A DNA stretch of 64,000 nucleotides from positions 62,001 through 126,000 of the forward strand of contig NZ_BMKK01000005.1 of NCBI RefSeq assembly GCF_014644295.1. The letters are read 5' to 3'. This document shows, in pieces, positions 4,951-29,383 of the stretch. Position 1 is the stretch's first letter, and every line of letters begins with the position of its first letter. The notes beneath the pieces are model-generated. The model made no database searches, was not told the origin of the DNA, and saw nothing but the letters and a program-made list of their open reading frames with translations. This stretch comes from Emticicia aquatilis (GTDB taxonomy: Bacteria; Bacteroidota; Bacteroidia; Cytophagales; Spirosomataceae). A program made the position numbers and the translations under genes.

Positions 4951-7413
4951 ATGAAATTCATCAATACACTATTCTTTATTCTAACCTTCACACTTCTCGG
5001 AACTGCTCAAAGTTACATTCGGGTCAATCAGTTGGGATATTTACCCAACTCGATAAAAGTGGCCGTAGTAATGAGCAACCCAAAAAGCCCAATCCAATCT
5101 TTCGAAATCCGTGATGCTTTGAGTGAGAAAATAGTTTTGCGTTCGACCAAAGTAAGGCCAAGTGGACAATTTGGTAATTTTGCAGCTACTTATCGCTTAG
5201 ATTTTTCCACTCTCCAAAAAAACGGCATTTATTATATACAAACTACTGATAGTCAATCGCCTAAATTCAAAATTTCAGAAGATGTATATGCAGGAAGTGC
5301 CGATTTTTTATTGAAATATATGCGTCAACAACGATGTGGCTATAATCCATTTTTAAAAGATTCTTGTCACATTCACGATGGTTTTAGGGTTTATCATCCC
5401 GACCCCAGAAAAGATTCAACTTTCATCGACGTAAAAGGAGGTTGGCATGATGCTTCTGATTATCTGCAATACACCACCACAACCGCCAATGCCGTTTATC
5501 AAATGCTTTTGGCCTATAAAAGCAATCCTGCGGCCTTCAAAGACCTATACGATGCTCGTGGTTTAGAAGGCAAGAATGGTATTCCTGATATAATCGACGA
5601 AATAAAATGGGGTATTGATTGGCTTGTAAAAATGAACCCTGCTTATGGCGAAATGTATAACCAAATTGCCGACGACCGTGACCACCAAGGCCTAAGACTA
5701 CCCAACAATGACCCTACCTCCTACGGAAAAGGCAAAATGCGACCAGTATATTTTTGCACAGGCAAACCACAGGGAGCATTTCAGCACAAAAGTAGAGCAA
5801 CGGGCATTGCCTCAACCGCAGGGAAATATGCTTCGACCTTTGCCTTAGGAGCAGACGTTTTGCAGAAATTTTATCCGACACTTTCAAAAACATTAAAAAC
5901 CAAAGCATTAGAAGCCTACGATTGGGGTAAGAAAAATCCAGGGGCTTGCCAAACTGCTCCTTGTCGAGCTCCCTATTTTTATGAAGAAGACAATTGGACT
6001 GATGATATGGAATTAGCCGCTGCCGAGCTTTCTAAACTTACAGCCAACAAAACTTATCTGAAAGATGCAGTCAGCTTTAGTAAGGAGGAAACCGTTACGC
6101 CTTGGATGATAAACGATACTGCTCGCCACTATCAATGGTACCCGTTTATGAATGCGGGTCATTATCAAACAGCAAGCCAACTAACTGATAATAAAGCTTT
6201 TATCACTTACTATCAAAAAGGCCTAAGTGCCATTGAAGCTCGGGCCAAAAAGAACCCATTTTTGAATGGAATTCCTTTTATTTGGTGTTCTAATAACTTA
6301 GTAACTGCCACTCTTACCCAACTAAATTTATACCGAAAAATTGGAGGTAAAGGTTTCGACGAAATGGAGGCTTCGCTCCGAGATTGGCTTTTTGGCTGTA
6401 ATCCGTGGGGAACAAGCATGATTGTAGGTTTACCCAAAACGGGTGATTTTCCAGAAGACCCACACTCGGCATTTACTTACTTGAAACAATACCCGATTGA
6501 TGGAGGATTGGTCGATGGCCCCGTCAGAAACTCCATTTTCAAAGGCTTAAAATACGTAGCTTTGCGTTTCCCCGATGAATATGTGAGTTTTCAATCAAAT
6601 ATGGCTGTTTATCACGATGATTTTGGCGATTATTCGACCAATGAACCAACAATGGACGGAACGGCTGCACTGACTTATTATCTGTCGAGTTTAGAGACCA
6701 AAAAGCCTTTACCCACTCCCACCAATCTGACCATCAGCAAGGGAGCAATCACACGATTCGATACAAAAACTAAAACGATTCGTTTGGTATTTACGGGGCA
6801 TAATTTTTATGAAGGAGGCGAGAAAATTCAACAAACATTAAACAATGAAAAAATCAAGGCCTCTTTCTTTTTTACAGGAGATTTTTACCGAAATCCTGAG
6901 TGTAAATTGCTGATTACGAAACTAATCAATGATGGACATTATTTGGGAGGGCATTCGGACAAACATTTGCTCTATAATGATTGGACAAAGCGAGATTCTC
7001 TGCTCGTAAGCAAGCAACAATTTGAAGATGATTTAAAAGCCAATTATGCTGCCATGAGTACCTTTGGTATTAGCCAGCACAAAGCTTCTTATTTTATGCC
7101 TCCTTTTGAATGGTACAACGAAACAATCGCCAACTGGACAAATGCTTTTGGACTTAAACTAATCAATTTTACGGCTGGAACAGGTTCAAACCGAGACTAT
7201 ACTTACCCCGAAATGGGCAATAAATACGCTAATAATCAGACGATTATGAGTGATATTATAAAATATGAGCAGACAAGTCAAGATGGATTAAATGGGTTTA
7301 TATTGTTGGTTCATTTAGGAACTGACCCTCGACGAAAAGAAAAATTTTATGACCAACTCGGCGAACTAATCAAAGATTTCAAGAAGAAAGGTTATAAATT
7401 TGAGCGTTTATGA
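4951..7413 (+). CDS. GH9 endoglucanase fused to a polysaccharide-deacetylase-like domain
   Basis: I chose the ATG at 4951 because it places a good signal peptide (MKFINTLFFILTFTLLGTAQ) at the N-terminus; the frame is open upstream to 4855. After the signal comes an Ig-like CelD_N domain (to about residue 110). A GH9 catalytic domain follows, with GGWHDASDY near residue 164 and NEPTMDGTAALTYYL near 563, the region of the general acid. From about residue 600 the chain continues into a NodB-like fold with GGHSDKH (the HxxxH metal motif) near 666. The usual TFDDG motif is replaced by VFTGHNF, so deacetylase activity is doubtful. The product is probably secreted or periplasmic and acts on beta-glucans. 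Confidence 0.88.
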   Translation: MKFINTLFFILTFTLLGTAQSYIRVNQLGYLPNSIKVAVVMSNPKSPIQSFEIRDALSEKIVLRSTKVRPSGQFGNFAATYRLDFSTLQKNGIYYIQTTDSQSPKFKISEDVYAGSADFLLKYMRQQRCGYNPFLKDSCHIHDGFRVYHPDPRKDSTFIDVKGGWHDASDYLQYTTTTANAVYQMLLAYKSNPAAFKDLYDARGLEGKNGIPDIIDEIKWGIDWLVKMNPAYGEMYNQIADDRDHQGLRLPNNDPTSYGKGKMRPVYFCTGKPQGAFQHKSRATGIASTAGKYASTFALGADVLQKFYPTLSKTLKTKALEAYDWGKKNPGACQTAPCRAPYFYEEDNWTDDMELAAAELSKLTANKTYLKDAVSFSKEETVTPWMINDTARHYQWYPFMNAGHYQTASQLTDNKAFITYYQKGLSAIEARAKKNPFLNGIPFIWCSNNLVTATLTQLNLYRKIGGKGFDEMEASLRDWLFGCNPWGTSMIVGLPKTGDFPEDPHSAFTYLKQYPIDGGLVDGPVRNSIFKGLKYVALRFPDEYVSFQSNMAVYHDDFGDYSTNEPTMDGTAALTYYLSSLETKKPLPTPTNLTISKGAITRFDTKTKTIRLVFTGHNFYEGGEKIQQTLNNEKIKASFFFTGDFYRNPECKLLITKLINDGHYLGGHSDKHLLYNDWTKRDSLLVSKQQFEDDLKANYAAMSTFGISQHKASYFMPPFEWYNETIANWTNAFGLKLINFTAGTGSNRDYTYPEMGNKYANNQTIMSDIIKYEQTSQDGLNGFILLVHLGTDPRRKEKFYDQLGELIKDFKKKGYKFERL

Positions 7414-8052: not shown

Positions 8053-8097
8053 AAAAAGTCCATTGTCAGAGAAATTATCTTCGACAATGGACTTTTT
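8053..8097. terminator. Bidirectional intrinsic terminator
   Basis: A 15-bp perfect stem, AAAAAGTCCATTGTC against GACAATGGACTTTTT, with a 15-nt loop and A/T tracts on both flanks. It lies between the convergent peroxiredoxin and holin-family genes. Confidence 0.85.
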
Positions 8098-8112
8098 ACT
8101 ATTTAGCAATCA

Positions 8113-8451
8113 TTAGTCTTGGAAAGTACCCACCACACTATTCACGATTGAAAGAATAAAACCAAAAATCAATGGTTGAATAAAACCACTTACTTTGAAG
8201 CCATCAACCAAATAATCACACAGATAAACAATAACTACGTTGATAACCAACGAAAACAGCCCGAGGGTAAGAATTGTAATCGGCAAAGAAAGTAGTTTGA
8301 GTATCGGTTTGACGAATGTATTCAGAAAACTCATTACCAACGCAACAATCAAAGCCGTTGTGATGGTATCAACTCTGATTGCATTCAAAAATTGGGGCAT
8401 GAAATAAACCGCAGCGGCACAACACGCCAAACGAATCAAGTAATTTATCAT
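8113..8451 (-). CDS. Phage holin family / DUF360-like membrane protein
   Basis: A 112-residue protein made of four hydrophobic helices (for example TITTALIVALVMSFLNTFV and LLSLPITILTLGLFSLVINV) with the FVKPILKLLSLP turn typical of the family annotated as phage holin family 4 superfamily IV (PF04020-like). These are common chromosomal inner-membrane proteins in Bacteroidetes and are not evidence of a prophage. Function unknown. The assignment rests on recognisable sequence pattern and topology. Confidence 0.75.
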   Translation of the reverse strand: MINYLIRLACCAAAVYFMPQFLNAIRVDTITTALIVALVMSFLNTFVKPILKLLSLPITILTLGLFSLVINVVIVYLCDYLVDGFKVSGFIQPLIFGFILSIVNSVVGTFQD

Positions 8452-8576
8452 AAAATCTACTATTGAGTGAGTGAATGTTAGAATGATTGAATATAAAGTT
8501 AATGAAGTATTATCATTTCATCAAAAATTTTCTCAAATCATAAAATTCTATCATTCGCTAATTCTATCAATCAAAA

Positions 8577-9179
8577 TTATTTGTGACGCTTAATTAGCAC
8601 ATCAAGCACCTCATCGAAGGTATAATTCTTTTGTTCCAATAACACCAAATAGTGATAAAACAAATCGGCAGCTTCGCCCAAAAACAATTCTTTATTATCG
8701 TCTTTAGCTTCTATTACCAACTCAACGGCCTCTTCACCAACTTTCTGAGCAACTTTATTTACACCTTTCTTGAATAACTCCGTCGTGTAAGATTTATCCG
8801 ATGGATTCAATTTACGGTCTTTGATTACAGCTCGTAAACGATTGATAAACAATACTTTTCCATCATTAACTTCCTGAAAACAAGTATCATCACCCGTATG
8901 GCAAGTTGGTCCATCTGGCGAAGCATAAATCAAAATCGTATCGCCATCACAATCGACCAATACATTTTTTACGTGCAGAAAATTGTTTGATGTCTCTCCT
9001 TTAGTCCAAAGTCTTTGCTTACTGCGGCTAAAAAAAGTTACAATTTTATCGGTTATTGTTTTCTCATACGCTTCGGCATTCATGTAGCCAAGCATAAGCA
9101 CTTTGCCCGTAATCGAATCTTGGATAATCGCAGGAATCAATCCATCGGGCGATTTATCAAAAGCTATTGTTCTATCCAT
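8577..9179 (-). CDS. hisIE: Bifunctional phosphoribosyl-AMP cyclohydrolase / phosphoribosyl-ATP pyrophosphatase
   Basis: Catalyses steps 2 and 3 of histidine biosynthesis in the cytoplasm. The N-terminal HisI domain (about 1-110) carries the metal and zinc motifs VDCDGDTILI and GPTCHTGDDTCF. The C-terminal HisE domain (about 115-200) has the EEAVELVIEAK and EAADLFYHYLVLL helices of the MazG-like all-alpha pyrophosphatase fold. The 200-residue length is normal for the fusion. No other his gene is seen nearby, so it is transcribed away from any his operon. Confidence 0.95.
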   Translation of the reverse strand: MDRTIAFDKSPDGLIPAIIQDSITGKVLMLGYMNAEAYEKTITDKIVTFFSRSKQRLWTKGETSNNFLHVKNVLVDCDGDTILIYASPDGPTCHTGDDTCFQEVNDGKVLFINRLRAVIKDRKLNPSDKSYTTELFKKGVNKVAQKVGEEAVELVIEAKDDNKELFLGEAADLFYHYLVLLEQKNYTFDEVLDVLIKRHK

Positions 9180-9320
9180 TTATTGAATTACAATTTTAAA
9201 GAATCTTATCAAAAGACTTCCAAATATCATATTTAGATAATTAGCTAAATATTTTTAAAACTAAATTTTCCTATTATTTTTGCAAAAGTACAGATGTTAA
9301 AAACTTAAACTCACAAAAAC

Positions 9321-9770
9321 ATGAAAAAAATATACTTCATTGCCCTTTTTTGCTGCTCGTTGGTAAATACGGCTCAAAAAAGCACCGCTGATACGCTGAT
9401 TTATACAACCACTGATGTCGCACCAAGCTATCCACAAGGCTACCAAGCACTTTACTCGTTCATTTGTGCGAACGTTAGTGTACCAGTTTCTGAAATTCCG
9501 ACCGAAAAAAACAAGAATACCGTTTTCATCAAATTTGTTGTAGAAAAAGATGGAAGTACAAGTAACTACGAAATAATGAAAGGAATCAATAAAACTTGCG
9601 ATGCCGAAGCGATGAGAGTGATAAAATTAATGTCCAATTGGAATCCAGGCGGCACGACTAAATATAATAAATTCCAGCCATTGAGAATGTACATGACAAT
9701 TCCGATAAAATTTTTTCAAAATTTTTCAGCGTGCGAAGCATCTTATAATCAGATATTTACAAAAAAATAA
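9321..9770 (+). CDS. TonB C-terminal-like secreted protein
   Basis: A 149-residue protein with a cleavable signal (MKKIYFIALFCCSLVNTAQ) and a single domain that looks like the TonB C-terminal fold: VFIKFVVEKDGSTSNYEIMKG, then CDAEAMRVIKLMSNWNPG, then MYMTIPIKF. Such stand-alone domains are common in Bacteroidetes and are usually called energy transducers, but this one has no N-terminal transmembrane anchor or proline-rich spacer, so it cannot act as a classical TonB. A TATTTTTG box (9275-9282) matches the Bacteroidetes -7 element upstream. Confidence 0.75.
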   Translation: MKKIYFIALFCCSLVNTAQKSTADTLIYTTTDVAPSYPQGYQALYSFICANVSVPVSEIPTEKNKNTVFIKFVVEKDGSTSNYEIMKGINKTCDAEAMRVIKLMSNWNPGGTTKYNKFQPLRMYMTIPIKFFQNFSACEASYNQIFTKK

Positions 9771-9802
9771 TAAAAATTTTACAACTTTTTTGTTTCAAAC
9801 AC

Positions 9803-9833
9803 TTGACAAGTAAGAAATCTCGCTGTACCTTTG
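9803..9833 (+). promoter_or_regulatory. Bacteroidetes-type promoter of the tRNA pair
   Basis: TTG at 9803-9805 and TACCTTTG at 9826-9833 are separated by 20 bp. This matches the -33/-7 consensus TTG-N19/20-TAnnTTTG of Bacteroidetes primary sigma factors. It lies about 45 bp before tRNA-Gly. Confidence 0.75.
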
Positions 9834-9878
9834 CACCACATTAAGACAGAGACACCAAGTCAAAATCAAAAATGTAAT

Positions 9879-9951
9879 GCGAAAGTAGCTCAGTTGGTAG
9901 AGCGTAACCTTGCCAAGGTTAAGGTCGCGAGTTCGAGACTCGTCTTTCGCT
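9879..9951 (+). tRNA. tRNA-Gly (anticodon GCC)
   Basis: A 73-nt cloverleaf: acceptor GCGAAAG/CTTTCGC, anticodon stem TAACC/GGTTA with loop TTGCCAA, and T arm with TTCGAGA. The anticodon GCC reads glycine GGC/GGU codons. The CCA end is not encoded. Confidence 0.96.
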
Positions 9952-9961
9952 CGAAAATATC

Positions 9962-9988
9962 AAGCACCTCATCGGTGCTTTTTTTTTC
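9962..9988 (+). terminator. Intrinsic terminator after tRNA-Gly
   Basis: AAGCACC and GGTGCTT form a 7-bp stem with a 5-nt loop followed by a run of T. It lies between the two tRNA genes, so read-through or a second promoter must supply tRNA-Leu. Confidence 0.75.
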
Positions 9989-10010
9989 AAGAATAAGGTC
10001 AAACTTGTTC

Positions 10011-10096
10011 GCCGAGGTGGTGGAACTGGTAGACACGCAGGACTTAAAATCCTGTGAGCTTTTAAACTCGTACGGGTTCGATTCCCGTCCTCGGTA
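10011..10096 (+). tRNA. tRNA-Leu (anticodon TAA); integration target
   Basis: An 86-nt class II tRNA with a long variable arm. The acceptor stem is GCCGAGG/CCTCGGT and the anticodon loop CTTAAAA sits between CAGGA and TCCTG, giving anticodon UAA (reads UUA). CCA is not encoded. The 3' end, from the T arm onward, is the left attachment site of the island, which restores an intact tRNA. Confidence 0.95.
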
Positions 10097-10097
10097 C
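10081..10097 (+). other. attL core (17-bp direct repeat)
   Basis: attcccgtcctcggtac at the 3' end of tRNA-Leu is repeated exactly at 26888-26904, next to the integrase gene. This is the expected crossover repeat of a tRNA-targeting tyrosine recombinase. Confidence 0.9.
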
Positions 10098-10131
10098 AAA
10101 TCCTGCAAAATAAAGGCAGAAAAAAACAAAA

Positions 10132-10176: not shown

Positions 10177-10210
10177 CTTTTTAGGTTCTTTATTTTTGTT
10201 TTGTTATTTT

Positions 10211-10262
10211 TTGTAGAAGAATTGTAGAAGAATTGTAGAAATTTTTTTTTAAAGTTGTAGAA
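10211..10262 (+). repeat. Putative integrase arm-type sites, left end
   Basis: Four copies of TTGTAGAA start at 10211, 10222, 10233 and 10255, so they are spaced 11, 11 and 22 bp apart, in helical phase. The same octamer recurs at the right end. Apart from these sites and the hairpin at 10132-10176, the roughly 430 bp between tRNA-Leu and hsdS hold nothing I can identify. Confidence 0.65.
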
Positions 10263-10535
10263 AAAATTAATTACATTTAAAATATTAGTAAAACACTATC
10301 AAATCAAACAAATATATTAATTTACACATACTTTTAGAAAGTAGTTTAATTGTAATTATTTACCTTTTAACTTATTATTTACGAGTATAATCTATCCTAT
10401 AACGTTAACAGAAATGTATGATAAATAAGTAACAATTAATTTTCATCATACAGAAGCCATGATTTACATATAGAAGCATTGTATAAGTTATTGTAGAAAC
10501 CTAAATTTACGATTAAAAATAACTCAAATCTAAAC

Positions 10536-12053
10536 TTGAAAAAGACAAAAAATATACCTAATACTTGGGAATGGGTTACTATTAAAGATATTGCTATAAC
10601 AAGTAGTGGTGGTACTCCTGATAGGAACAATGCAAGTTATTTTAAAGGAGATATTCCTTGGGTTAAATCAGGCGAACTTAACTATAACACAATTGTTCAA
10701 ACAGATGAGTATATAACACAAGAGGCATTAGATTCTTCAAGTGCTAAAGTTTTTACTAAAGGTTCATTATTAATTGCCTTGTATGGTAATACTGTTGGAA
10801 GAATGGCTTTTTTGGGTATTGATGCCGCTACCAATCAAGCTATTGCATCTATTAAGCCATTTAGAATAAACCCCAAATATTTATATTATTACTTAATAAA
10901 CTCAAAAGAAGAGTTATTAAATAAACGAGAAGGTAGTGCACAACCTAACATTAGTCAAAAAGTATTAAATGATTTCTCATTCCCTCTTGCCCCAATTGAA
11001 GAGCAAAACAGAATTGTTGAAAGAATTGAAGAGTTATTTAGTGAATTAGACAAAATAACAGCAGAACTCAATGAAGCAAAAACTAAAGCAAATCTTTTAC
11101 TTAGAGCTTTGTTGAATAACTCTTTCTCAAATGTTAACACCTATTTTGATATTAGAAAATTAGAGGACTTATGTGAAAACATTACAGATGGTTCTCACTT
11201 TTCACCTGAAACAACTTTAGAAGGATTTCCCTATATTACAGTTAAGGATGTAAAAAATGATAGAATAGATTTTGAAAATTGTAAAAAAATTAGTGAAGAA
11301 TCATTTCTGAAATTAAAAATTAGCGGATGTAGTCCTAAGTTTAATGATTTATTATTTTCTAAGGATGGAACAGTTGGTAAAGTTGTTATTAATGATTACA
11401 AATCTGATTTTGTTGTATTATCTTCTTTAGCCATTCTAACACCTAATCAAAATAAAATTTTACCACAATATTTATTTTATTATCTAAAATCTGATTTATT
11501 CCTTAATCAAGCCTTAAACTCAAAAAGGGGGGTTGCAATTAAACGTATTGTTTTGAGGGATTTAAAAAAATTGAAAATTAAGATACCAACAAATCTTAAC
11601 ACACAGTTAGATATTGTTACTAAAATTGAAGAAGGATTTTCTAATATTAACACGTTAATTGAAGAAATAGCATCAAAAATACATTCAAATGACAATTTAA
11701 TTAAAAAAATCCTCAAAGATGCTTTTCAAGGGAACTTATCATCTCGCCTAAATACAGATACATCAGTTAAAATTTTGTTAGACGAAATAAATACAGAAAA
11801 AACAGAATATTTAGTTCAACAACACGAGATAAATAAGAGTCGTCCCAAATTCAAAAAGGTAGAATCAGAATCTTTAGTACATATTATTAAAAAAAATTTC
11901 ATGTCCAAAAGTTTTAGTTTTCACGAATTAGTAGATAAAGCTATTACAACAAATAGTGAATTTGAAAAAGAGTTTGATTTATTAATGAGTGAAAATATAT
12001 TGTCAAAAATGTATGATGAAAAATCAAAATCAATAAAATTTAGGTTAAAATGA
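10536..12053 (+). CDS. hsdS: Type I restriction-modification specificity subunit with C-terminal extension
   Basis: DNA-recognition subunit. Two target recognition domains alternate with conserved helical spacers: TRD1 (about 1-150), spacer APIEEQNRIVERIEELF, TRD2 (about 205-365), then a second spacer ending LKDAFQGNLSSRL. About 95 further residues follow, longer than usual for HsdS, and end in a segment (FSFHELVDKAITT) that could be a small winged helix. The start is TTG at 10536; an in-frame stop at 10494 and the lack of any earlier ATG leave little choice. It overlaps the ATPase gene by 4 bp. HsdS comes first in this operon and HsdM last, the reverse of the usual order. Confidence 0.92.
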   Translation: MKKTKNIPNTWEWVTIKDIAITSSGGTPDRNNASYFKGDIPWVKSGELNYNTIVQTDEYITQEALDSSSAKVFTKGSLLIALYGNTVGRMAFLGIDAATNQAIASIKPFRINPKYLYYYLINSKEELLNKREGSAQPNISQKVLNDFSFPLAPIEEQNRIVERIEELFSELDKITAELNEAKTKANLLLRALLNNSFSNVNTYFDIRKLEDLCENITDGSHFSPETTLEGFPYITVKDVKNDRIDFENCKKISEESFLKLKISGCSPKFNDLLFSKDGTVGKVVINDYKSDFVVLSSLAILTPNQNKILPQYLFYYLKSDLFLNQALNSKRGVAIKRIVLRDLKKLKIKIPTNLNTQLDIVTKIEEGFSNINTLIEEIASKIHSNDNLIKKILKDAFQGNLSSRLNTDTSVKILLDEINTEKTEYLVQQHEINKSRPKFKKVESESLVHIIKKNFMSKSFSFHELVDKAITTNSEFEKEFDLLMSENILSKMYDEKSKSIKFRLK

Positions 12054-13606
12054 AATTAAGAAAATTAGTCATATATGATATTGATTACAAACCTTTAATA
12101 AAAGGCATTGAATTGTTCTTTCCTAAAAGTGACGAAAATTATATTAATGCAAACTGTTTTATTGGAATAAATGGTTCTGGTAAATCACAAACTCTTGAAA
12201 TTATAGCTGAAATCTTTTTGTTTTTGGAAAATGTATTTAGGAAGGAAAACAAAAAGAATAATTTATTTTCTCCATTTGGATTTAGAATCGAATACGAAAT
12301 CACAAAAGAAAATATTGAATATTTGATGATTTTTGATTGTGAAGAAATTAAAACAAAAGAAAAAGATATTCAAATTGAAATTTACAAAAAAGATAATGAG
12401 GACTTTTCTGCAATTGACATAATTGGTTTAAATATTTATGAGTTTCTGCCAAGCAAAATCATAGGTTATAGTTCAGGTGCTAATGAAACAATAAGTCTTC
12501 CTTTCGACTCTTATTATGATGAATATGCAGAATATACTTATAATAGAGCCTTTGGAAAAGTTATAGGAGATGACTATGACCCAAATATGTATTTTATGAA
12601 TTATAATACAAATTTAGGAATTGCAATAAGTAGCTTAATTTTTAGAGAAGATATTCCTAATATTGATAAAATTTTATCAATATTACAGATAGAGGATTTA
12701 ATTAGTTTCCAAATAACAATTCAAACATTTCCACCTGATACCCCAAACAAACAGCAAGGGGGAGTAATACTAACACCAGAATTAGAAGAATGGAAAAATA
12801 GATTGATAAAGCTCGCTGATAAACCATTTTATGAGGAAAAACATAAGAAATATATTCTAAAATACAATCTTGACGATATTACAAGAATGGCTTTTAAAGC
12901 TAACTTTGCCAACGCTTTTGAATTATATACATGTCTTTATAAATTTGAATTGTTGAATAATTTAATAGTTGATAAAACCACTAAAGAAAAAATTAAAAAA
13001 GAGAGAAAGCAAAGACGACTATTAACAAAAATGCCAATGGTCTCTGACATAAATAAGGTTTTATGTTATTCTGAATTAAAACTAAAACTTAAAAATGAAA
13101 ATAAAGTTGACTACCTTAGTTTAAGTGATGGAGAGCATCAATTTTTAAATGTTTTTGGAACATTATTAATGATAAATCAAGATAACTGTTTATTTCTCTT
13201 AGATGAACCTGAGACACATTTTAATCCAAAATGGAGAAGAACGTTTATTAGTACACTAAAAGACATTACTGAGGGGCGTAAACAAGATATGATAATAACT
13301 ACACACTCTCCATTTGTTGTTTCAGATTGTAAAAAAGAAAATGTTTATATTTTTAAAAAAGAAAATAATGTTATAGATATTGAAAACCCTCAAAAAGAGA
13401 CCTTTGGGGCATCATTTGATAACATTTTAGACATGGCTTTTGATATAAAAATTCCAATTTCAGAAGATTCACTAAATGAGATTAATAAATTAAATAAAGA
13501 GAATGACCCCAGCATAATAAATGATAAACTCCATGATTTTGGAGAATCAATGGAAAAAATCAAACTATTAAGTAGAATAATTTTGTTAAATTCTAAAAAG
13601 GAATAG
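12050..13606 (+). CDS. Restriction-system-associated AAA (ABC-type) ATPase
   Basis: A 518-residue ATPase of the OLD/PtuA-like ABC class. Walker A is GINGSGKS (residues 39-46), the ABC signature-like segment is LSDGEHQFLNV near 357, Walker B with D-loop is FLLDEPETHFNP near 383, and the H-loop is ITTHSPFVVSD near 417. The middle (100-340) is helical and family-specific. There is no TOPRIM domain, so it is not a complete OLD nuclease; the nuclease is likely the HNH protein encoded 2 bp downstream, as in Septu PtuA-PtuB pairs. It starts inside the hsdS stop codon (ATGA), implying translational coupling. Confidence 0.85.
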   Translation: MKLRKLVIYDIDYKPLIKGIELFFPKSDENYINANCFIGINGSGKSQTLEIIAEIFLFLENVFRKENKKNNLFSPFGFRIEYEITKENIEYLMIFDCEEIKTKEKDIQIEIYKKDNEDFSAIDIIGLNIYEFLPSKIIGYSSGANETISLPFDSYYDEYAEYTYNRAFGKVIGDDYDPNMYFMNYNTNLGIAISSLIFREDIPNIDKILSILQIEDLISFQITIQTFPPDTPNKQQGGVILTPELEEWKNRLIKLADKPFYEEKHKKYILKYNLDDITRMAFKANFANAFELYTCLYKFELLNNLIVDKTTKEKIKKERKQRRLLTKMPMVSDINKVLCYSELKLKLKNENKVDYLSLSDGEHQFLNVFGTLLMINQDNCLFLLDEPETHFNPKWRRTFISTLKDITEGRKQDMIITTHSPFVVSDCKKENVYIFKKENNVIDIENPQKETFGASFDNILDMAFDIKIPISEDSLNEINKLNKENDPSIINDKLHDFGESMEKIKLLSRIILLNSKKE

Positions 13607-13608
13607 CA

Positions 13609-14700
13609 ATGCTGTATAAATATGAATTTGTTAAGCATAGAAAGTTAAGAGAGCTTAACTTCCATTTCCTTTATTTTATCAGAAAGATAAAAGGCATAAA
13701 AAAAAGTACGCCTTTTACTCCTAAAATTTACTTTCACCAAAGTTTTCTTAATCAATCGGGGCAAATTGCTCCTAAAGGCACATTTAATAAAGAAATTCAT
13801 TCAAAATTTAATTTATTTTTTAATGATTTTAAAAAATTAAAACAAGACTCTAAAAATGAATTTTATAATTTAGTTGTCTTTTCAAACGATATTCATCTAT
13901 ATTTTGAAGACAATAGTATTAATGAAGTTAAGTCATTAAAAATTGAAAACATTAAAAAGATTTTAAAATCTGATTCATTTAAAAATTTGATGGATTCCTT
14001 ATGGAAATATTTAAAGTCAACAGCTTGGGAAATAGATAAACATTATGAAGAATTTTATAACAAACTTCCTAATTCAAAAATGTGTCCATTTTGTGGCTTA
14101 AATGAAATTTCAAATCAAACGTTATTTAAGGCGGACTATGACCACATAGCTAATAAAGCAAAATATCCTATATCTTCTATAAACCTGAAAAACCTTGCAC
14201 CATCTTGTTCTGAGTGCAATCAAAAATTCAAAAGCGATAAAGATGTATTTTATAAAAATAATATTAGGAGAGTTTTCTTATATCCATATCTTTTCAATAG
14301 TAAATTTCAAAATCAACATATTGAAATAGATTTAACTGGTAGTATAATTCCAAATACCGATAGTAACAATATGGATGGGAAATGGCTTGTTAATATACAT
14401 CCTACTAATAACTTTAATCAAACATGGAATGAAATTTATTCTGTAAAGAAAAGATACTGTTTCTCTTTATATTTAAAACATTATAAATGGCTTCAAGAAT
14501 TTACCCACTCACTAAAAATAGCAAATATCAATTTTGCAAATCAAGTCGAGCTTATAGAGTATTTATCAAGTTATAAAGAAATGTTTAATCCGAATGATAG
14601 TTTACATACGGAATATCATTTAAAATATTCATACTTTAAATATTTAGAAATTTCATTTAATGATGTGTTATTCAATCAAATAAATATGATGTGTGCATGA
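13609..14700 (+). CDS. HNH endonuclease with zinc-finger core
   Basis: A 363-residue protein. The nuclease core lies at about residues 160-215: CPFCGLNE (first Cys pair), KADYDHIANKAKYP (catalytic DH), NLKNLAPSCSECNQ (second Cys pair plus Asn) and KSDKD. This is the layout of HNH nucleases of the PtuB/McrA type. The N-terminal 150 and C-terminal 150 residues are not recognised. It lies 2 bp after the ATPase gene and overlaps hsdM by 4 bp, so the four genes must be co-translated. It is longer than typical PtuB proteins. I infer that it is the DNA-cleaving effector replacing HsdR. Confidence 0.82.
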   Translation: MLYKYEFVKHRKLRELNFHFLYFIRKIKGIKKSTPFTPKIYFHQSFLNQSGQIAPKGTFNKEIHSKFNLFFNDFKKLKQDSKNEFYNLVVFSNDIHLYFEDNSINEVKSLKIENIKKILKSDSFKNLMDSLWKYLKSTAWEIDKHYEEFYNKLPNSKMCPFCGLNEISNQTLFKADYDHIANKAKYPISSINLKNLAPSCSECNQKFKSDKDVFYKNNIRRVFLYPYLFNSKFQNQHIEIDLTGSIIPNTDSNNMDGKWLVNIHPTNNFNQTWNEIYSVKKRYCFSLYLKHYKWLQEFTHSLKIANINFANQVELIEYLSSYKEMFNPNDSLHTEYHLKYSYFKYLEISFNDVLFNQINMMCA

Positions 14701-16193
14701 TAAAAAATACTTTAGTAGCAAAAATATGGTCATTTTGTGATACATTAAGGGATGATGGAGTAAGTTATGGTGATTATTTGGAACAAATAACATACCTATT
14801 ATTTCTTAAAATGGCTGATGAATACTCAAAGCCACCATTTAATAGAAACTTTAATATACCCCAAAATTGTGATTGGCAATATTTTCTAAATCATCCTTTA
14901 GATGGATTAACTTTAGATTATGTAAATGCTTTGAATGCTTTATCAAAATCAGGTAAAATGTTGAGCAAAATTTTTACTGGTGCTCAAAATAAAATTCACG
15001 ACCCATACAAACTAAAAAAACTAATTGAACTCTTAGATGAGGATAATTGGGTTTCAGAATCTGTCGATATAAAAGGAGATATTTATGAAAATCTTCTTCA
15101 AAAAAGTGCTGAAAGTAGTGGTGCAGGCCAATACTTTACACCTCGTTCGATTATTAAAGCAATTGTTGAGTGTATAGACCCTAAACCATTAGAAACAATT
15201 TCTGACCCTACTTGTGGTACAGGAGGATTTTTTCTTGGAGCTATTGAATATTTGAATAAAAACTACCAAGAAGAATTATCAATAAAACAAAATAAAGAGT
15301 TTTTGCAGTTTAAAACTTTTCATGGTTGGGATATTGTTCCATCAACTGCACGACTATGCTTAATGAATTTGTTTTTACATGGGATTGGAGACTTAAAAGA
15401 GAGCCCTGAAATTGATGTTATTGACAGTTTAATAGAACCTCCTAAAGAAAAAGTTAAAATAGTTCTTGCTAATCCTCCATTTGGAAAAAGTAGTACTTAT
15501 ACAATTACAAATGATGAAAAGTTAGCTAAACAAGAGGCATACATATACAGAGATGATTTTTGGACAACAACGAGTAATAAACAACTTTGTTTTGTGCAAC
15601 ATATAATAAATATGTTAGATTCTGATGGACGTGCTGCTATTGTACTGCCTGATAATGTTTTATTTGAAGGCGGTGCGGGAGAAATTATTAGAAAGAAATT
15701 ATTAGAAGAGACTAATTTACACACTATTTTAAGACTCCCAACTGGAATTTTTTATGCTAATGGTGTAAAATGTAATGTTTTATTCTTAGAGAAGCAAAAA
15801 ACAATAAAACGGGCATTAACTGATGCAATTTGGTTTTATGATTACAGGACAAATGTACATCATACATTAAAAAAACACTCTTTACAATTTAAACATTTAG
15901 AGCCATTTGTAAAATGTTATCATTCTAAAGATAGAGAACAAACTGCTGAAACATGGAGTGAAAAGAATATAAATGGAAGATTTCGTAAATATTCATATTC
16001 AGAACTAATAGCAAGGGATAAAACTAATTTTGATATTACTTGGTTAAAAGATAATAGCTTAGTTGATTTAGATAGCCTTCCAGAGCCAGAAATATTAGCA
16101 CAAGAAATTGTAGATAGTTTAGAAAGTGTATTAAACAGCTTTAGAGAGGTTGTTAGAAGTCTTTCAAAAAATGACAATTTGCTAAATGATTAA
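14697..16193 (+). CDS. hsdM: Type I restriction-modification DNA methyltransferase subunit
   Basis: N6-adenine methyltransferase. The HsdM N-terminal helical domain (residues 1-130) contains YLEQITYLLFLKMADE. The catalytic domain has the SAM motif ISDPTCGTGGFF near residue 168 and the catalytic LANPPFGK near 257; GQYFTPRSI precedes them as usual. I chose the ATG at 14697, which overlaps the HNH stop as ATGA, over a GTG two codons earlier. With HsdS it should methylate a bipartite site. No hsdR gene exists anywhere in the island. Confidence 0.94.
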   Translation: MIKNTLVAKIWSFCDTLRDDGVSYGDYLEQITYLLFLKMADEYSKPPFNRNFNIPQNCDWQYFLNHPLDGLTLDYVNALNALSKSGKMLSKIFTGAQNKIHDPYKLKKLIELLDEDNWVSESVDIKGDIYENLLQKSAESSGAGQYFTPRSIIKAIVECIDPKPLETISDPTCGTGGFFLGAIEYLNKNYQEELSIKQNKEFLQFKTFHGWDIVPSTARLCLMNLFLHGIGDLKESPEIDVIDSLIEPPKEKVKIVLANPPFGKSSTYTITNDEKLAKQEAYIYRDDFWTTTSNKQLCFVQHIINMLDSDGRAAIVLPDNVLFEGGAGEIIRKKLLEETNLHTILRLPTGIFYANGVKCNVLFLEKQKTIKRALTDAIWFYDYRTNVHHTLKKHSLQFKHLEPFVKCYHSKDREQTAETWSEKNINGRFRKYSYSELIARDKTNFDITWLKDNSLVDLDSLPEPEILAQEIVDSLESVLNSFREVVRSLSKNDNLLND

Positions 16194-16313
16194 AAACCTT
16201 AGTTACAATTCAATAATTTCCACATTCATTTTCAGGAGTTTTGTAATCAAGGGTAAAACTGTCTCAAAAGAAGTGGGCAACAAAATACAGCATAACCCCC
16301 ATTGTAGCTACTA

Positions 16314-16350
16314 AATAAGGAGTTAAGATATTTTCCTAACTCCTTATTAT
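16314..16350. terminator. Bidirectional terminator
   Basis: AATAAGGAGTTA (16314-16325) pairs perfectly with TAACTCCTTATT (16337-16348), loop 11 nt. It lies between convergent hsdM and the DUF3871 gene. Confidence 0.75.
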
Positions 16351-16351
16351 T

Positions 16352-17332
16352 TCAATTCAAAAACCAATTACCCTGTTTACTTTCAAGTGCTTGTACTACA
16401 CTATTAGTAAAATCAAAGGCATTTACCCCCCTATCAAGAAAAGTATCAATGTATGATTGTTTATTAGCACCAGTGAATAGATTATAAGTATTCCATAAAC
16501 TAATGCTACCATCATCATTTCTACAAAATGACTTATCTTGATAGTAATCTCGTGCTACCATGTTGATTTGTGAATCTCCAAATGATAATAGTGGTAATTC
16601 TTTCTTTTCTTTTACTGGTAGATAATTATACAACTTAGATTTACCAATCAATGTAGCAAACTGATGCTCTGTCAATGAGTAGTTCATTAAATTCTGTAAT
16701 GCTAATAATTGTTGCTCGGCTCTGTAATTAGTAATAAGTTTGTAAATCTGTTGCATTAACTGATTTACATTATTAGCTTTTAAATTACCTACAAATCCGT
16801 CTGACCATACACAAAGATTACAGCATACTTTGTTCTGAAAGCCAATGAATACTTTAAAATGTTCATCACCTCCTTTTTTACTGTATAGATTATCAAGACT
16901 ATATGACTTAACACCTCCAATAGTTAGATTTAATGTATTACCATTAACATTATCTCTAATTGTAGGTATTTCTATTACAAAAGCCATTCTTTCATAATAG
17001 ATAGTCTTTTCATGTTCTAATAAATCTTTTGCAGGTTTATCTTTAGCTTCAGGTGTACGTCCTTTTATTGGATGTGATACTCTAATAGCAGGATGTAATA
17101 TCTGTTCATTCTTATACACATGATTTACTACTTCTAAGGTAGAATTAATAAAATCTTGATGGGATATTACTGGCTCATTGTCTTTCACATAGACAGGTAT
17201 TAAATGATTATGTTCGACATCATACATACTCATTGGTTCTGTATTAGCTTGGATAAATACGTTATCGGTTGACACTTGATAATTATCTAATACAAGTGTT
17301 GGTTGTGGTTTAAATAATGTTTGAAGCTCCAT
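16352..17332 (-). CDS. DUF3871-like protein
   Basis: A 326-residue soluble protein that resembles the DUF3871 family found on Bacteroidetes plasmids and integrative elements. Recognisable stretches include HPAIRVSHPIKGRTPEAK and ENVCCNLCVWSDG-like residues around VCCNLCVWSDGFVG. The role is not known; the family often sits beside single-strand DNA-handling genes, and here the Sak4-like ATPase gene lies 7 bp upstream in the same operon. It ends at a terminator shared with hsdM. Confidence 0.6.
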   Translation of the reverse strand: MELQTLFKPQPTLVLDNYQVSTDNVFIQANTEPMSMYDVEHNHLIPVYVKDNEPVISHQDFINSTLEVVNHVYKNEQILHPAIRVSHPIKGRTPEAKDKPAKDLLEHEKTIYYERMAFVIEIPTIRDNVNGNTLNLTIGGVKSYSLDNLYSKKGGDEHFKVFIGFQNKVCCNLCVWSDGFVGNLKANNVNQLMQQIYKLITNYRAEQQLLALQNLMNYSLTEHQFATLIGKSKLYNYLPVKEKKELPLLSFGDSQINMVARDYYQDKSFCRNDDGSISLWNTYNLFTGANKQSYIDTFLDRGVNAFDFTNSVVQALESKQGNWFLN

Positions 17333-17339
17333 TGTAGTA

Positions 17340-18191
17340 TTATTTTGATAATGAGTGATTAACTGTTAATTGTAGTAGGTATTTCTTTTGATTAAATGCT
17401 TGTTTATAATCGTTTTGTATTTCAGGTGTAGAGCTTAAATACAATTCTCTTAACTCGTCCATTGTAACACAAGATTTTATCAGTAATAAGATATTATCAT
17501 TATTGTCATCTGAAAAAGAAGAATTTGGTTGTTTACACCATTGTACTATTTGTTGACCTATTTCAGCATTTAGTTTAAAGTCAGATTTATTCATAAATAA
17601 ACCTGTACGGTCTTTACTGGCAGTAGCATTATGTTTACAATCAATATCAAATACTAATGTAAATTCATAATCTATGCCTTCACGTTGAATAGGTTTTAAT
17701 CCTACTTTCTCAGGAATTTGTTTACCATTCTTTTCTTGTAATACATAATCTTGTTTAGTACGAATAGTACAAATAACATGAGCATTAGCTTGTAGAATGG
17801 TATTAATAAACTGATTGTGTCGAGGTGTAAATTTTGACCAGTTGGTATATGAATTACCTGCTAATGCTCCATGCTGCTCTAAAATATAGTCCCATTCGTG
17901 AGAGATAGAATCTATAATAATAACCTCCATTTGAGCCTTTAAACAGACGTTTATAGCTTCTTCATACTTTTCAGGTGAAAATGGTTCTTCAATATTCAAA
18001 ACATTGTAAGAACCTAAATGTGAGTATAATTCAGCACTATGATTTTCAGTATCAATGATGGCTATTTTAGACCAGTCATTAGTCATACCATAAGCTAATA
18101 ATAAAGCAGACATTGATTTACCTGAACCTGAACCAGCTTGTAAACCAATTTTAATCTTAACATTTTGTCGTTTTGCTACTTGTAATTGCAT
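17340..18191 (-). CDS. P-loop ATPase, Sak4/RecA-like
   Basis: A 283-residue ATPase with Walker A AGSGSGKS at residues 19-26 and Walker B VIIIDSISHEW near 90. The sequence around IDTENHSAELYSHLG and the compact RecA-type core match phage NTP-binding proteins of the Sak4 class, which anneal single-stranded DNA. On a mobile element this suggests help in replication or recombination, as inference. It is the first gene of a minus-strand operon with the DUF3871 gene and sits directly downstream of an intrinsic-terminator-like hairpin in its own leader (18216-18246). Confidence 0.7.
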   Translation of the reverse strand: MQLQVAKRQNVKIKIGLQAGSGSGKSMSALLLAYGMTNDWSKIAIIDTENHSAELYSHLGSYNVLNIEEPFSPEKYEEAINVCLKAQMEVIIIDSISHEWDYILEQHGALAGNSYTNWSKFTPRHNQFINTILQANAHVICTIRTKQDYVLQEKNGKQIPEKVGLKPIQREGIDYEFTLVFDIDCKHNATASKDRTGLFMNKSDFKLNAEIGQQIVQWCKQPNSSFSDDNNDNILLLIKSCVTMDELRELYLSSTPEIQNDYKQAFNQKKYLLQLTVNHSLSK

Positions 18192-18215
18192 ATTGATTAA
18201 GGTTTAGATATTAAT

Positions 18216-18714: not shown

Positions 18715-19857
18715 ATGAAAAATTTACTTGCGTATGCAGATGAGTCAGGAAATAATTCTTTTGATTTTGAGAAACAAAGTACACATTTTATTATTGCAGC
18801 TATCATAATAAAAAAAGAGAATGTGTCTAAAATAGAAAATGAAATTGAACAAATTAGAAAAAAATATTTCCAAACTGGTGAAATGAAATCTTCTAAAGTT
18901 GGGGATAATCATCAGCGTAGACTAAAGGTACTTAATGAAATTAGCAAAGTAGATTTTTCAATTTATGCCATTGTGGTAGATAAAAGAGAGCTATTCAGTG
19001 AAGGCTTTAAATATAAAGGGTCATTTTATAAGTTCCTAAATAGATTAGCTTATACTGAATTATTCAGAGCCTATCCTGATTTGCATCTAATGGTAGATGA
19101 ACATGGTTCAAATGATTTTATGAGGGGTTTTAAGAAATATATCCTCAAACATCATGTAATGGATTTATTTACTGAATCTGATTTTAATTTTATACAAAGC
19201 CCCCAAAGTGTTTTAATACAGTTAGCTGATTTTATTGCAGGTACATTAGGAAGATACTACGATGAGTCTAAAAAGTCAGAATTTAGTAGTCAATTTCTTG
19301 AAGTTTTAAAACCAAAAATAGCAAGTTTAGATATATTTCCACTCAAATTTCAATCTTCTCAAATCAACATTGATGAAAATGAAAGAGATTATCATAAAGT
19401 TATTGCAGATTTTGGATTAAGAAAAGCAATGGAATTTATAGATACAAAAAAAGTTATTAGCCAAGAAGATTCAGACCAAATTGCTTGCTTAAAAGTTTTA
19501 ATGCTCTATTTCCGTGTATATGACTACAAAAAATATATTTCAACTAAAGAAATTATCAATCATTTGCAAATAGGAAGAAAAGAACCACTTAATGAACACT
19601 ATTTTAGAACCAAAATTATTGCTAAACTAAGAGATAGTGGCGTACTAATTACCAGTAACAGTGCAGGTTATAAACTACCATCTTCAACAAGTGACTTATA
19701 TAAATTTATTCAACATGGAAACAGTGTTATCTCTCCAATGATTTCAAGGATAAAAAAATGCAGAGATAGTATAAAGCTCGCAACCAATAATGAGATTGAT
19801 ATACTTGATAGACAAGAATTTAAAAATTTACGAATTATGTTAGAATTAGTGGATTGA
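18715..19857 (+). CDS. DUF3800 domain protein with C-terminal extension
   Basis: A 380-residue protein. Residues 1-185 match the DUF3800 (RNase H-like fold) pattern, with the opening YADESGNNS acidic motif, LMVDEHGSND in the middle and IQLADFIAGTLGRYY at the end. These supply Asp/Glu residues where RNase H-like enzymes bind metal. The remaining 190 residues (DQIACLKVLMLYFRVY onward) are helical and may include a winged helix (YISTKEIINHLQIG, then VLITSNSAGYKLP). DUF3800 genes are frequent on mobile elements, with no settled function. It appears to be monocistronic. Confidence 0.75.
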   Translation: MKNLLAYADESGNNSFDFEKQSTHFIIAAIIIKKENVSKIENEIEQIRKKYFQTGEMKSSKVGDNHQRRLKVLNEISKVDFSIYAIVVDKRELFSEGFKYKGSFYKFLNRLAYTELFRAYPDLHLMVDEHGSNDFMRGFKKYILKHHVMDLFTESDFNFIQSPQSVLIQLADFIAGTLGRYYDESKKSEFSSQFLEVLKPKIASLDIFPLKFQSSQINIDENERDYHKVIADFGLRKAMEFIDTKKVISQEDSDQIACLKVLMLYFRVYDYKKYISTKEIINHLQIGRKEPLNEHYFRTKIIAKLRDSGVLITSNSAGYKLPSSTSDLYKFIQHGNSVISPMISRIKKCRDSIKLATNNEIDILDRQEFKNLRIMLELVD

Positions 19858-25647: not shown

Positions 25648-26727
25648 TCAATAGTTAGGTATAGCATTTACAGCTTTCTTTTTCATTTCATCAGCTATCC
25701 TTATATATTTCATTGTGTGCTTTAATGATGTATGCCCCATAAGTTTACTTACAGTAACAATATCACTTCCATAGAAAGCTAATAACGTACCAAATGTGTG
25801 CCTTGCACAATGGAATGTAATATGTTTATCTACCCCTGCTGTCTTTGCCCAGTTTTCAAGGTTTTTAATTGTTGCATTATGGCTTGGTAAATTAAACACG
25901 AAATCATCATCTTTTTTACGTTCAGGTAAAAATTTCTTTGCATTTGCATTCAAAAATAAATTTACTGTTATGTCTGTTTTAGCTTGATTCATTTGTAATG
26001 AGTCACCCTTTATGTATTTCCATTTAAGTGCTTTTATATCAACAAATCGCAAACCTGTATTACAAGCAAATAAGAAAGCATTCTTTACGTTCTCATTACC
26101 ACAATAGCTTACTGTCAATAATTTCAATTCATCAATATTCAAAACCTCCTTTTCTATACTCTTTTCCTGTTTAGTATTTTTTACATCCTCAGTCGGGTTT
26201 TGCTTAAAAATTCGATTTTTACCTTTACTTGAATATGTTATAAATTTTTTAAACCTTGCAAAATATGTGTGAGGGGTTTCACCATTTAATTTTTTGTCAA
26301 GATAGTTTTTGAATTTAATACATAAGTTTTCATCAATTTGATTAATGGAGATAGGTGGAGGTGCAAACTCTTTAAACTGTTGATAAACTGCCACCATTAC
26401 TCTTTTATCCTTCTGTGTATAGTCTTTAAGATAGTTATCAAAATAAGTATAAAAGTCTTGATTTTTAGTTTTCTTTTGTTCAAGTATCTCATCAATCTCA
26501 TTACTAAATAACTGTTTTTCTCGTTCAACTCTAAGAGCTTCCACTTTAATCTTAACTTCCTTATTATGTTGTTTTTCGAGTACCCCTTTAGGTGTAATAA
26601 AAAGAAATTCATCAGTAGCCTCCCACGTTCTCTTATTAAGCTTATATAATAGGTAAAGCCTTTCTCTATTAGTAGAGGTAACTTTACTTACAATTTTAAC
26701 TCGGTATTTAGTAGATTGCGTTTCCAT
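25648..26727 (-). CDS. Tyrosine recombinase / integrase
   Basis: I chose the ATG at 26727 (METQSTKYRV), giving 359 residues; the frame extends to 26796 without a plausible start. An arm-binding N-terminus and SAM-like core-binding domain (YFDNYLKDYTQKDKR onward) precede the catalytic domain. The catalytic residues are Arg in NTGLRFVDI, His/Arg in FHCARHTFGT, His in LMGHTSLKHT and the Tyr nucleophile in MKYIRI. It should recombine the 17-bp tRNA-Leu repeat. It is located about 160 bp inside attR, as usual for site-specific elements. Confidence 0.94.
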   Translation of the reverse strand: METQSTKYRVKIVSKVTSTNRERLYLLYKLNKRTWEATDEFLFITPKGVLEKQHNKEVKIKVEALRVEREKQLFSNEIDEILEQKKTKNQDFYTYFDNYLKDYTQKDKRVMVAVYQQFKEFAPPPISINQIDENLCIKFKNYLDKKLNGETPHTYFARFKKFITYSSKGKNRIFKQNPTEDVKNTKQEKSIEKEVLNIDELKLLTVSYCGNENVKNAFLFACNTGLRFVDIKALKWKYIKGDSLQMNQAKTDITVNLFLNANAKKFLPERKKDDDFVFNLPSHNATIKNLENWAKTAGVDKHITFHCARHTFGTLLAFYGSDIVTVSKLMGHTSLKHTMKYIRIADEMKKKAVNAIPNY

Positions 26728-26781
26728 CTTTGATACTCTATATTTATATTTATTTTGCAGTACTATGTAAAGGTAAAAAAA

Positions 26782-26829
26782 GTGTAGAAAAAACAAAAAT
26801 TCTGCAATAATTGTAGAAAAATTGTAGAA
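26782..26829 (+). repeat. Putative integrase arm-type sites, right end
   Basis: GTGTAGAA at 26782 and TTGTAGAA at 26811 and 26822 (11 bp apart), plus an inverted near copy at 26800-26807. They match the octamer cluster inside attL and lie between the integrase start and the attR core. Confidence 0.6.
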
Positions 26830-26887
26830 ATTTTATAAATACAAATACATAAGTATTTGATTATCAACCATTTAACAACCCATGTTT

Positions 26888-27375: not shown

Positions 27376-27412
27376 TCAATAATTTGCTCTCAATATCAAC
27401 TGAATATTTCCG

Positions 27413-27420
27413 TACCTTTG
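27413..27420 (+). promoter_or_regulatory. -7 element of the helicase gene
   Basis: TACCTTTG matches TAnnTTTG exactly and ends 4 bp before the ATG at 27425, so transcription should start at or next to the start codon (leaderless mRNA). A convincing -33 TTG at the right spacing is not seen. Confidence 0.5.
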
Positions 27421-27424
27421 CTGT

Positions 27425-29326: not shown

Positions 29327-29328
29327 TG

Positions 29329-29383
29329 AAAAACGGTGCCTTCGACAACTTCGGCTGTCCGACACGCTCAGGCACCGTTTTTT
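29329..29383. terminator. Nested-hairpin bidirectional terminator, copy 1
   Basis: The outer stem AACGGTGCC / GGCACCGTT encloses an inner hairpin GACAAC-TTCG-GCTGTC and an 11-nt asymmetric segment; A and T tracts flank it. It lies between convergent genes. A near-identical copy occurs at 30106-30164, with a compensatory base-pair change in the outer stem. Confidence 0.8.

Follow-up and report, generated by a model that had tools for sequence, protein, structure and literature searches.

The 64,000-nucleotide stretch analyzed here (hereafter the window) comes from Emticicia aquatilis, contig NZ_BMKK01000005.1, positions 62,001 to 126,000 of the forward strand. Between window positions 10536 and 16193, four genes follow each other head to tail on the + strand: hsdS, an AAA ATPase gene, an HNH nuclease gene, and hsdM. 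The operon thus contains HsdM and HsdS of a type I restriction–modification system, with no HsdR encoded alongside (the three subunits are abbreviated M, S, and R below). The genes are tightly coupled. The hsdS gene (10536..12053, 505 residues, with a TTG start) shares an ATGA with the ATPase gene (12050..13606, 518 residues), a gap of 2 bp precedes the HNH gene (13609..14700, 363 residues), and the ATG of hsdM (14697..16193) overlaps the HNH stop codon; the list of open reading frames begins hsdM at an in-frame GTG, at 14691. An initial annotation, made from the sequence alone, had given the outer coordinates, the overlaps, and the gap, which we confirm, and all the motifs it quoted are present.

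The S protein contains two target-recognition domains with coiled coils and a C-terminal extension. It matches Methylase_S of Pfam (1.3e-39), and its AlphaFold2 (AF2) model, with a mean predicted local distance difference test score (pLDDT) of 88, has the HsdS structure 1yf2 as best Foldseek match (E 4.7e-28). The M protein is an N6-adenine methylase with an intact NPPF motif (N6_Mtase 4e-72, HsdM_N 7e-15). The ATPase, an AAA/ABC protein with the motifs GINGSGKS and LDEPETH, matches AAA_21 of Pfam (6.3e-20) and passes the curated cut-off of TIGR04435 (394 bits vs. 300, over positions 1–564 of 568). At NCBI, TIGR04435 is called "restriction system-associated AAA ATPase"; that such ATPases accompany restriction systems is, as this family name shows, already known. 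The protein also resembles PtuA of Septu (PADLOC PtuA 1.6e-54), and its profile matches solved PtuA chains (E about 1e-13); with the NCBIfam PtuA model it scores 69 bits, below the cut-off of 500 bits.

The HNH protein, with the motif series CPFC...DH...N...CSECN, matches HNH of Pfam below the cut-off (0.019), and PDC-M01B (6.6e-13) and PtuB (1.9e-9) in PADLOC. The likeness of the pair to PtuA and PtuB, proposed in the initial annotation, is supported for the ATPase and less clearly for the HNH protein. One paper treats PDC-M01 and PDC-M62 as duplicates of Septu (PMC11811056). With the HNH model, the sole Foldseek matches are four PtuB chains (E 0.56–3.9, not significant), and a profile search with the HNH alignment against solved structures gave seven matches, which we take for chance. 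Residues C159, C162, D178, H179, N195, C203, and N204 are invariant in 25 aligned proteins. In the HNH proteins of loci L059, L061, L063, L064, L066, and L067, the second CxxC opens with a glycine in place of cysteine, with DH and CN kept. Since the pair overlaps both hsdS and hsdM, it is not a stand-alone two-gene Septu.

The absence of R, also claimed in the initial annotation for the island that carries the operon, was found again for the whole window: tblastn with 16 HsdR queries across the 64 kb gives no match at E 1e-4 (as positive controls, four loci were matched with 71–87% identity). The order S-ATPase-HNH-M without R, for which that annotation had called for a census, recurs in six other loci (L057, L058, L060, L064, L065, and L068). 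In L058, there is one extra gene before M, and 4.1 kb separate S from the upstream contig end; in L065, a helicase-like frame of 35 bits at the edge, on the opposite strand, was not scored as R. L059 has the order R-S-ATPase-HNH-M. A similar two-gene pair, which we take to resemble an AbiE-type toxin–antitoxin, occurs upstream of the cassette in L058 (2447-4095) and L060 (6709-8403).

Among 395 genomes of the phylum, at least eight contain a TIGR04435 protein above the cut-off, that of the window being the lowest-scoring (in this search and in the HsdM search below, up to three first-look candidates were scored per genome, and the counts are lower bounds). A scan of GTDB species genomes, with the best 80 of 479 confirmed, gave 80 loci; with 14 further stretches and the window, this made 95 loci whose gene order was read. 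The ATPase tree has 87 rows; L105, from the same stretch of contig as L046, and seven distant loci (L050–L056) were dropped from it. In these 87 loci, R is present in 45 and absent from 31; the other 11, with less than 5.9 kb upstream, are set aside, so that 76 are assessable. In 26 of the 31 R-less loci, the sequence reaches 8.5 kb or more upstream of the ATPase and 6 kb or more downstream. On this quick tree, the presence of R switches at least 11 times and the position of M changes twice. In 84/87 loci, an hsdS end lies less than 150 bp from the ATPase start. The same 31 R-less loci, window included, were searched by tblastn for a decayed HsdR nearby, and 29 gave nothing at E 1e-4. The two others are L119, with a helicase-like match on the opposite strand at the locus edge, and L089, where a 45-residue HsdR remnant (5821-5955, 56% identity) lies about 1 kb upstream of hsdM, perhaps the trace of a recent loss of R.

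The family also occurs on plasmids. The complete plasmids of Hymenobacter (pHsw2, or L206, 41.6-kb, typed mobilizable) and Priestia carry M-S-ATPase-HNH with no HsdR match in 19–20 kb (HNH model, 105 and 191 bits, respectively); at the edge of the Priestia stretch, the opposite strand carries a gene annotated "restriction endonuclease." The Sphingobium plasmid relative has R. The one E. coli genome read, CFSAN064036 (L203, NZ_CP028166.1), shows R-M-S-ATPase-HNH, and its cassette adjoins genes annotated as an integrative conjugative element.

The M proteins were followed in 395 genomes of the class, where the HsdM of the window finds matches at E 1e-100 in at least 28, its own included. L158, on a 3.3 kb contig, was not used among the 27 others, which leaves 26 loci, eight without S and three with S at the edge. 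By the models used, four of the eight S-less loci show M alone in 14–20 kb (L166, L169, L176, and L180, the last with an HsdR fragment). Fifteen of the 26 could be judged for R, and the window and seven TIGR04435 loci were then added. All 13 loci without an ATPase–HNH pair contain R, mostly as R-S-M with other genes interposed. Among these 13, L173 combines a distant ATPase with an HsdR truncated by the edge and lacks a recognized HNH, and M precedes S in L184. For relatives of the window HsdM (50–60% identity), the operon order is mostly R-(x)-S-(x)-M. The initial annotation had considered S before M worthy of attention; that order is normal in this lineage, and we reject it as an abnormality. 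The gene in the S–M slot varies: SLFN_AlbA_2 (Pfam) in L167 (7850-9358), DUF6615 in L175, and, judged from a similar N-terminus, an SLFN_AlbA_2-like protein in L170 and L177. In L165 and L187 (the latter with split frames), S is followed by an ATPase–HNH pair of another kind, then by M, and there is no R. This second, unlike kind is found beside HsdMS in L050, L053, L165, and L187, all four R-less. Within the window HsdM lineage, R occurs in 1/10 operons with a pair vs. 13/13 without (Fisher test 1.2e-5, a value that ignores kinship and, as argued below, overstates the case); the HsdM search alone gives 0/2 vs. 13/13.

In the HsdM tree, the window belongs to a clade of nine (98/99), all nine R-less and all nine with an ATPase–HNH pair, seven pairs being of TIGR04435 type and two, scattered among them, of the other kind. 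Another clade, with L053, L062, L063, and L066 (100/100), is R-less in 4/4, again with both pair kinds mixed. Lack of R as a stable lineage trait is supported by these two groups of HsdM sequences; the R-less form belongs to a recurring lineage and is no local accident. The HsdM of L059 groups with that of the R-containing L167 (100/100), and the R proteins of the two loci share 80% identity; with both proteins so close, L059 looks like a recombinant. L051 combines R with a second-kind ATPase and a weakly matching HNH, and its HsdM falls outside both R-less clades. It speaks against a strict rule of pair without R.

Beside TIGR04435 pairs, HsdS extends beyond its usual C-terminal end. In the window, this tail covers about residues 445–505 (11868..12050, + strand). 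The AF2 model of residues 447–504 shows three helices and two strands in winged-helix order (pLDDT of the block, 64–88). Foldseek with the whole S model lists winged-helix regulators with E values no lower than 0.05, which is not significant, and the tail profile against solved structures gave nothing useful. In a held-out test, tail models built on half of the loci score above 10 bits in 81/85 S partners (L105 and L135 left out; the halves share relatives and are hence not independent). None of 17 HsdS controls without a pair exceeds 10 bits (best 5.3), some of these controls being split or edge-cut genes and one, L167, having a long extension of another sort. The four partners below 10 bits are L130, L072, L071, and L068. 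L130 has no recognized HNH gene, and the S of L068 is recognized by another tail model, for which it and its near relatives were the source. In four further loci, the full tail model gives 57 bits for E. coli, 20 for Priestia, 7 for Sphingobium, and -1 for Hymenobacter (pHsw2), whose extension does not match the model; by eye, all four S proteins show a C-terminal extension.

With a 34-row tail model, 395 genomes, at least 265 of them with an S domain, were searched (the best 15 first-look candidates per genome were scored, the best eight for the S-domain count, so that both numbers are lower bounds). There are at least 10 matches. Eight fall in the S genes that immediately precede the eight TIGR04435 ATPases (seven of these S genes are outside the model, that of the window inside); the two weakest lie outside S genes by the models used, and the scored matches in S genes occur only at the eight TIGR04435 loci. 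The tail is present both with and without R. S proteins beside the second ATPase–HNH kind have a C-terminal extension of their own, with a common motif in three of four. From these sequence patterns, we infer that the tail couples HsdS to the effector.

The ratio of nonsynonymous to synonymous substitution rates (dN/dS) against L057, L065, and L068 is 0.13–0.19 for the ATPase, 0.12–0.23 for the HNH protein, and 0.07–0.08 for HsdM; with dS above 1, these values are rough. HsdS, with fast-changing recognition domains, gives 0.55 against L057 and 0.34 against L068 (the S of L065 was left out). The four-gene unit is under purifying selection in the ATPase, the HNH protein, and M. Walker A is kept in 45/45 loci with R and 28/31 without, NPP[FYW] in 45/45 and 30/30, and the DH of the HNH protein in 42/44 and 30/31, respectively.

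The operon forms the left end of a low-GC island beside a tRNA-Leu gene. Attachment-site-like direct repeats of family D1 border the island at left (10206..10245, + strand) and right (26795..26834, + strand), and a tyrosine integrase gene lies at 25648..26796 on the - strand (Phage_integrase 2.9e-17). Congener L217 has an empty chromosomal site, with matches to window 8094-10101 and 27403-29333 only 59 bp apart. In congener L215, the chromosomal flank runs to window 10254; 14 bp further on begins a match to window 16229-18196, which contains two island backbone genes, and the four operon genes are missing. This describes the left part of that island. Flank comparison gives 10255..16228 (+ strand) as the cargo absent from the L215 island, and the best match of the four operon proteins to the 19.7 kb of L215 is no better than E 0.48. 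With an L215 island lacking the four genes at the same place, they give the appearance of a single unit some 6 kb long that includes no hsdR. Phage records contain no match to the ATPase at 1e-15. Within the island, a DUF3800 protein (18715-19857) matches the PADLOC candidate PDC-M04A (1.7e-14).

We propose, with about even confidence, that the operon is an R-less defense cassette derived from a type I system, in which HsdMS would be the sensor and would gate a PtuAB-like effector via the S tail. HsdM and HsdS, judged from family and intact motifs, would methylate a bipartite site and so act as self/non-self sensor. The ATPase–HNH complex would take the place of HsdR as effector, and the MS complex would hold and gate it by way of the winged-helix tail of HsdS, its proposed docking element. 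The trigger may be the encounter of MS with unmethylated target sites on incoming DNA, or the disabling of MS by an anti-restriction factor. The ATPase–HNH complex, freed or activated, would then cut nucleic acid, be it foreign DNA or an RNA of the host, for instance a tRNA. The four-gene unit, its presence or absence as a single piece, its recurrence, the R-less HsdM clades, and the association of the S tail with the pair are observed; complex formation, gating, trigger, and target are inferences. A wider version, to which we give somewhat less credence, is that HsdMS without R constitutes an interchangeable methylation-aware sensor with its own HsdM lineages, on which at least two unlike kinds of PtuAB-like effectors may dock by HsdS tails.

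Several observations weigh against this proposal. The likeness of the HNH protein to PtuB is weak (fold E 0.56). The R gene is kept in 45/76 assessable family loci, which means that loss of R is no general requirement of the pair. On this count, we reject the view that ATPase–HNH always replaces HsdR; the replacement suggested in the initial annotation keeps its support in the R-less HsdM clades (9/9 and 4/4) and fails as a general statement. The tail is not universal, being scored below 10 bits in 4/85 held-out partners and in two of the four further S proteins, both on plasmids. Of the 10 pair-bearing operons in the window HsdM lineage, eight (window included) come from the ATPase search, with the 13 others coming from the HsdM search, and one event may account for the whole R-less clade; for both reasons, the Fisher value overstates the case. 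The roughness of the dN/dS values adds to these points.

The main rival is a guard similar to PrrC, in which MS (or MSR) sequesters a latent toxic nuclease and a phage anti-restriction protein frees it, leading to abortive infection, e.g., by tRNA cleavage. The pair would then guard the enzyme and not act on unmethylated DNA. PrrC is sequestered in a type I complex (PMC3874165) and freed when T4 Stp inhibits that complex (PMC3874165, PMC12707154), and PrrC170 is listed as HsdR, HsdS, PrrC, HsdM, the same S-X-M slot if the list follows gene order (PMC11555353). The PtuAB of retron-Eco7 depletes tRNA-Tyr (PMC11555353), Septu EcB88 cleaves tRNA-Tyr (PMC13096335), and an E. coli Septu PtuAB is reported to act on nicked DNA (PMC11555353). 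Given these published activities, either DNA or tRNA could be the target. Most assessable relatives (45/76) have both the pair and an R gene, and the S tail is found with and without R, as a guard would allow. However, whole HsdM clades keep the pair without R, where a guard of restriction would be pointless unless MS itself is guarded, and there is no PrrC or other anticodon-nuclease family among the matches listed for the window proteins (Pfam, PADLOC, NCBIfam). The absence of R from whole clades favors, without being decisive, an effector working through MS over a restriction-only guard, and we consider the guard unlikely, yet a serious competitor.

An ordinary Septu-like two-gene system could also have lodged by chance in the operon of a solitary methylase, without functional link. 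The PtuA/PtuB likeness of the two proteins, the unlike genes that fill the S–M slot of relatives (SLFN_AlbA_2, DUF6615), and the partners missed by the tail model would fit such an accident. Chance does not account well for an ATPase start so constantly close to an hsdS end (84/87 loci), for a special S tail (81/85 partners vs. 0/17 controls), or for S-gene tail matches that coincide with TIGR04435 loci in 395 genomes, and we hold this possibility to be improbable.

Elsewhere in the Emticicia genome, there are two HsdRs, on contigs C7 and C1, each close to its own HsdM; a third HSDR_N match is a frame of 158 residues. On C7, an S lies between HsdR and its HsdM. On C1 (L005:7876-12751), HsdR is accompanied by its own HsdM and an S reduced to a 129-residue piece, then by a methyladenine glycosylase gene. 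The C1 HsdR and HsdM are 74% and 61% identical, respectively, to those of L047, an R-M-S-ATPase-HNH cassette; no ATPase–HNH pair was found at the C1 locus. Twelve genomes with R-less relatives were searched with HSDR_N, and 10 have a long frame (at least 779 residues) elsewhere. That an HsdR acting in trans completes the enzyme, with ATPase–HNH as accessory, could draw on the two HsdRs (especially the C1 copy with its S remnant) and on those 10 genomes, but it is very improbable, as each HsdR sits near its own HsdM, only 35% (C1, over 293 residues) or about 30% (fetched part of C7, over 124 residues) identical to that of the window, and as, among the 12 genomes, one has no HSDR_N match and another only frames of 355 and 171 residues.

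Effectors of PtuAB type are known alone, in Septu, and under the control of retrons. Should HsdMS gate PtuAB too, one effector module would be common to sensors of unrelated logics, and the methylation half of a type I system could serve without its motor-nuclease. Apparent orphan type I methylase operons may then be armed. The HsdS tail offers a concrete, deletable candidate for the coupling element. The question is a practical one, since the ATPase–HNH DNA of the Citrobacter relative L125, which has the R-containing version, matches 96/5426 complete E. coli genomes.

Among the titles and opening lines of abstracts listed from the open-licence PMC literature, none pointed to a paper on an R-less HsdMS-ATPase-HNH system or on TIGR04435, an absence that carries little weight; the features described here from sequence comparison (an S tail, two kinds of exchangeable effector, and an R-less lineage that has HsdM clades of its own) were likewise not found in the literature searched. 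Defense systems of the MADS type also combine a methylase, an HsdS-like subunit, and an ATPase (component names as in NCBIfam). Their gene set differs from that of the window operon, and membership is rejected on scores far below the cut-offs (116 of 720 bits for MAD2, 34 of 420 for MAD3, and 67 of 400 for MAD5). BREX is rejected as well, with PglX at best 16 of 400 bits.

The closest relatives are the TIGR04435 cassettes with R-M-S-ATPase-HNH order, such as that of E. coli CFSAN064036, which have the same ATPase family, HNH partner, tailed hsdS, and gene coupling as the window. Most assessable cassettes of the family keep R and have M before S, whereas the window operon has no R and an HsdM of another lineage in last position. 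Anticodon nucleases of the PrrC/EcoprrI type are, like the window pair, ATPase-linked nucleases lodged in an hsd operon; EcoprrI and PrrC170 keep HsdR, unlike the window operon. PrrC is a single protein with its own RNase domain. In Septu PtuA–PtuB and in the PtuAB of retrons Ec78/Eco7, a PtuA-like ATPase is followed by an HNH protein as in the window, and the resemblance extends to profiles and, more tentatively, to folds. The window HNH protein is larger (363 residues vs. 205–234 in the four solved PtuB chains matched), there is no reverse transcriptase, and the pair is embedded between hsdS and hsdM. On the wider version proposed above, an "epigenetically gated Septu" would parallel the PtuAB of retrons, gated by multicopy single-stranded DNA (msDNA).

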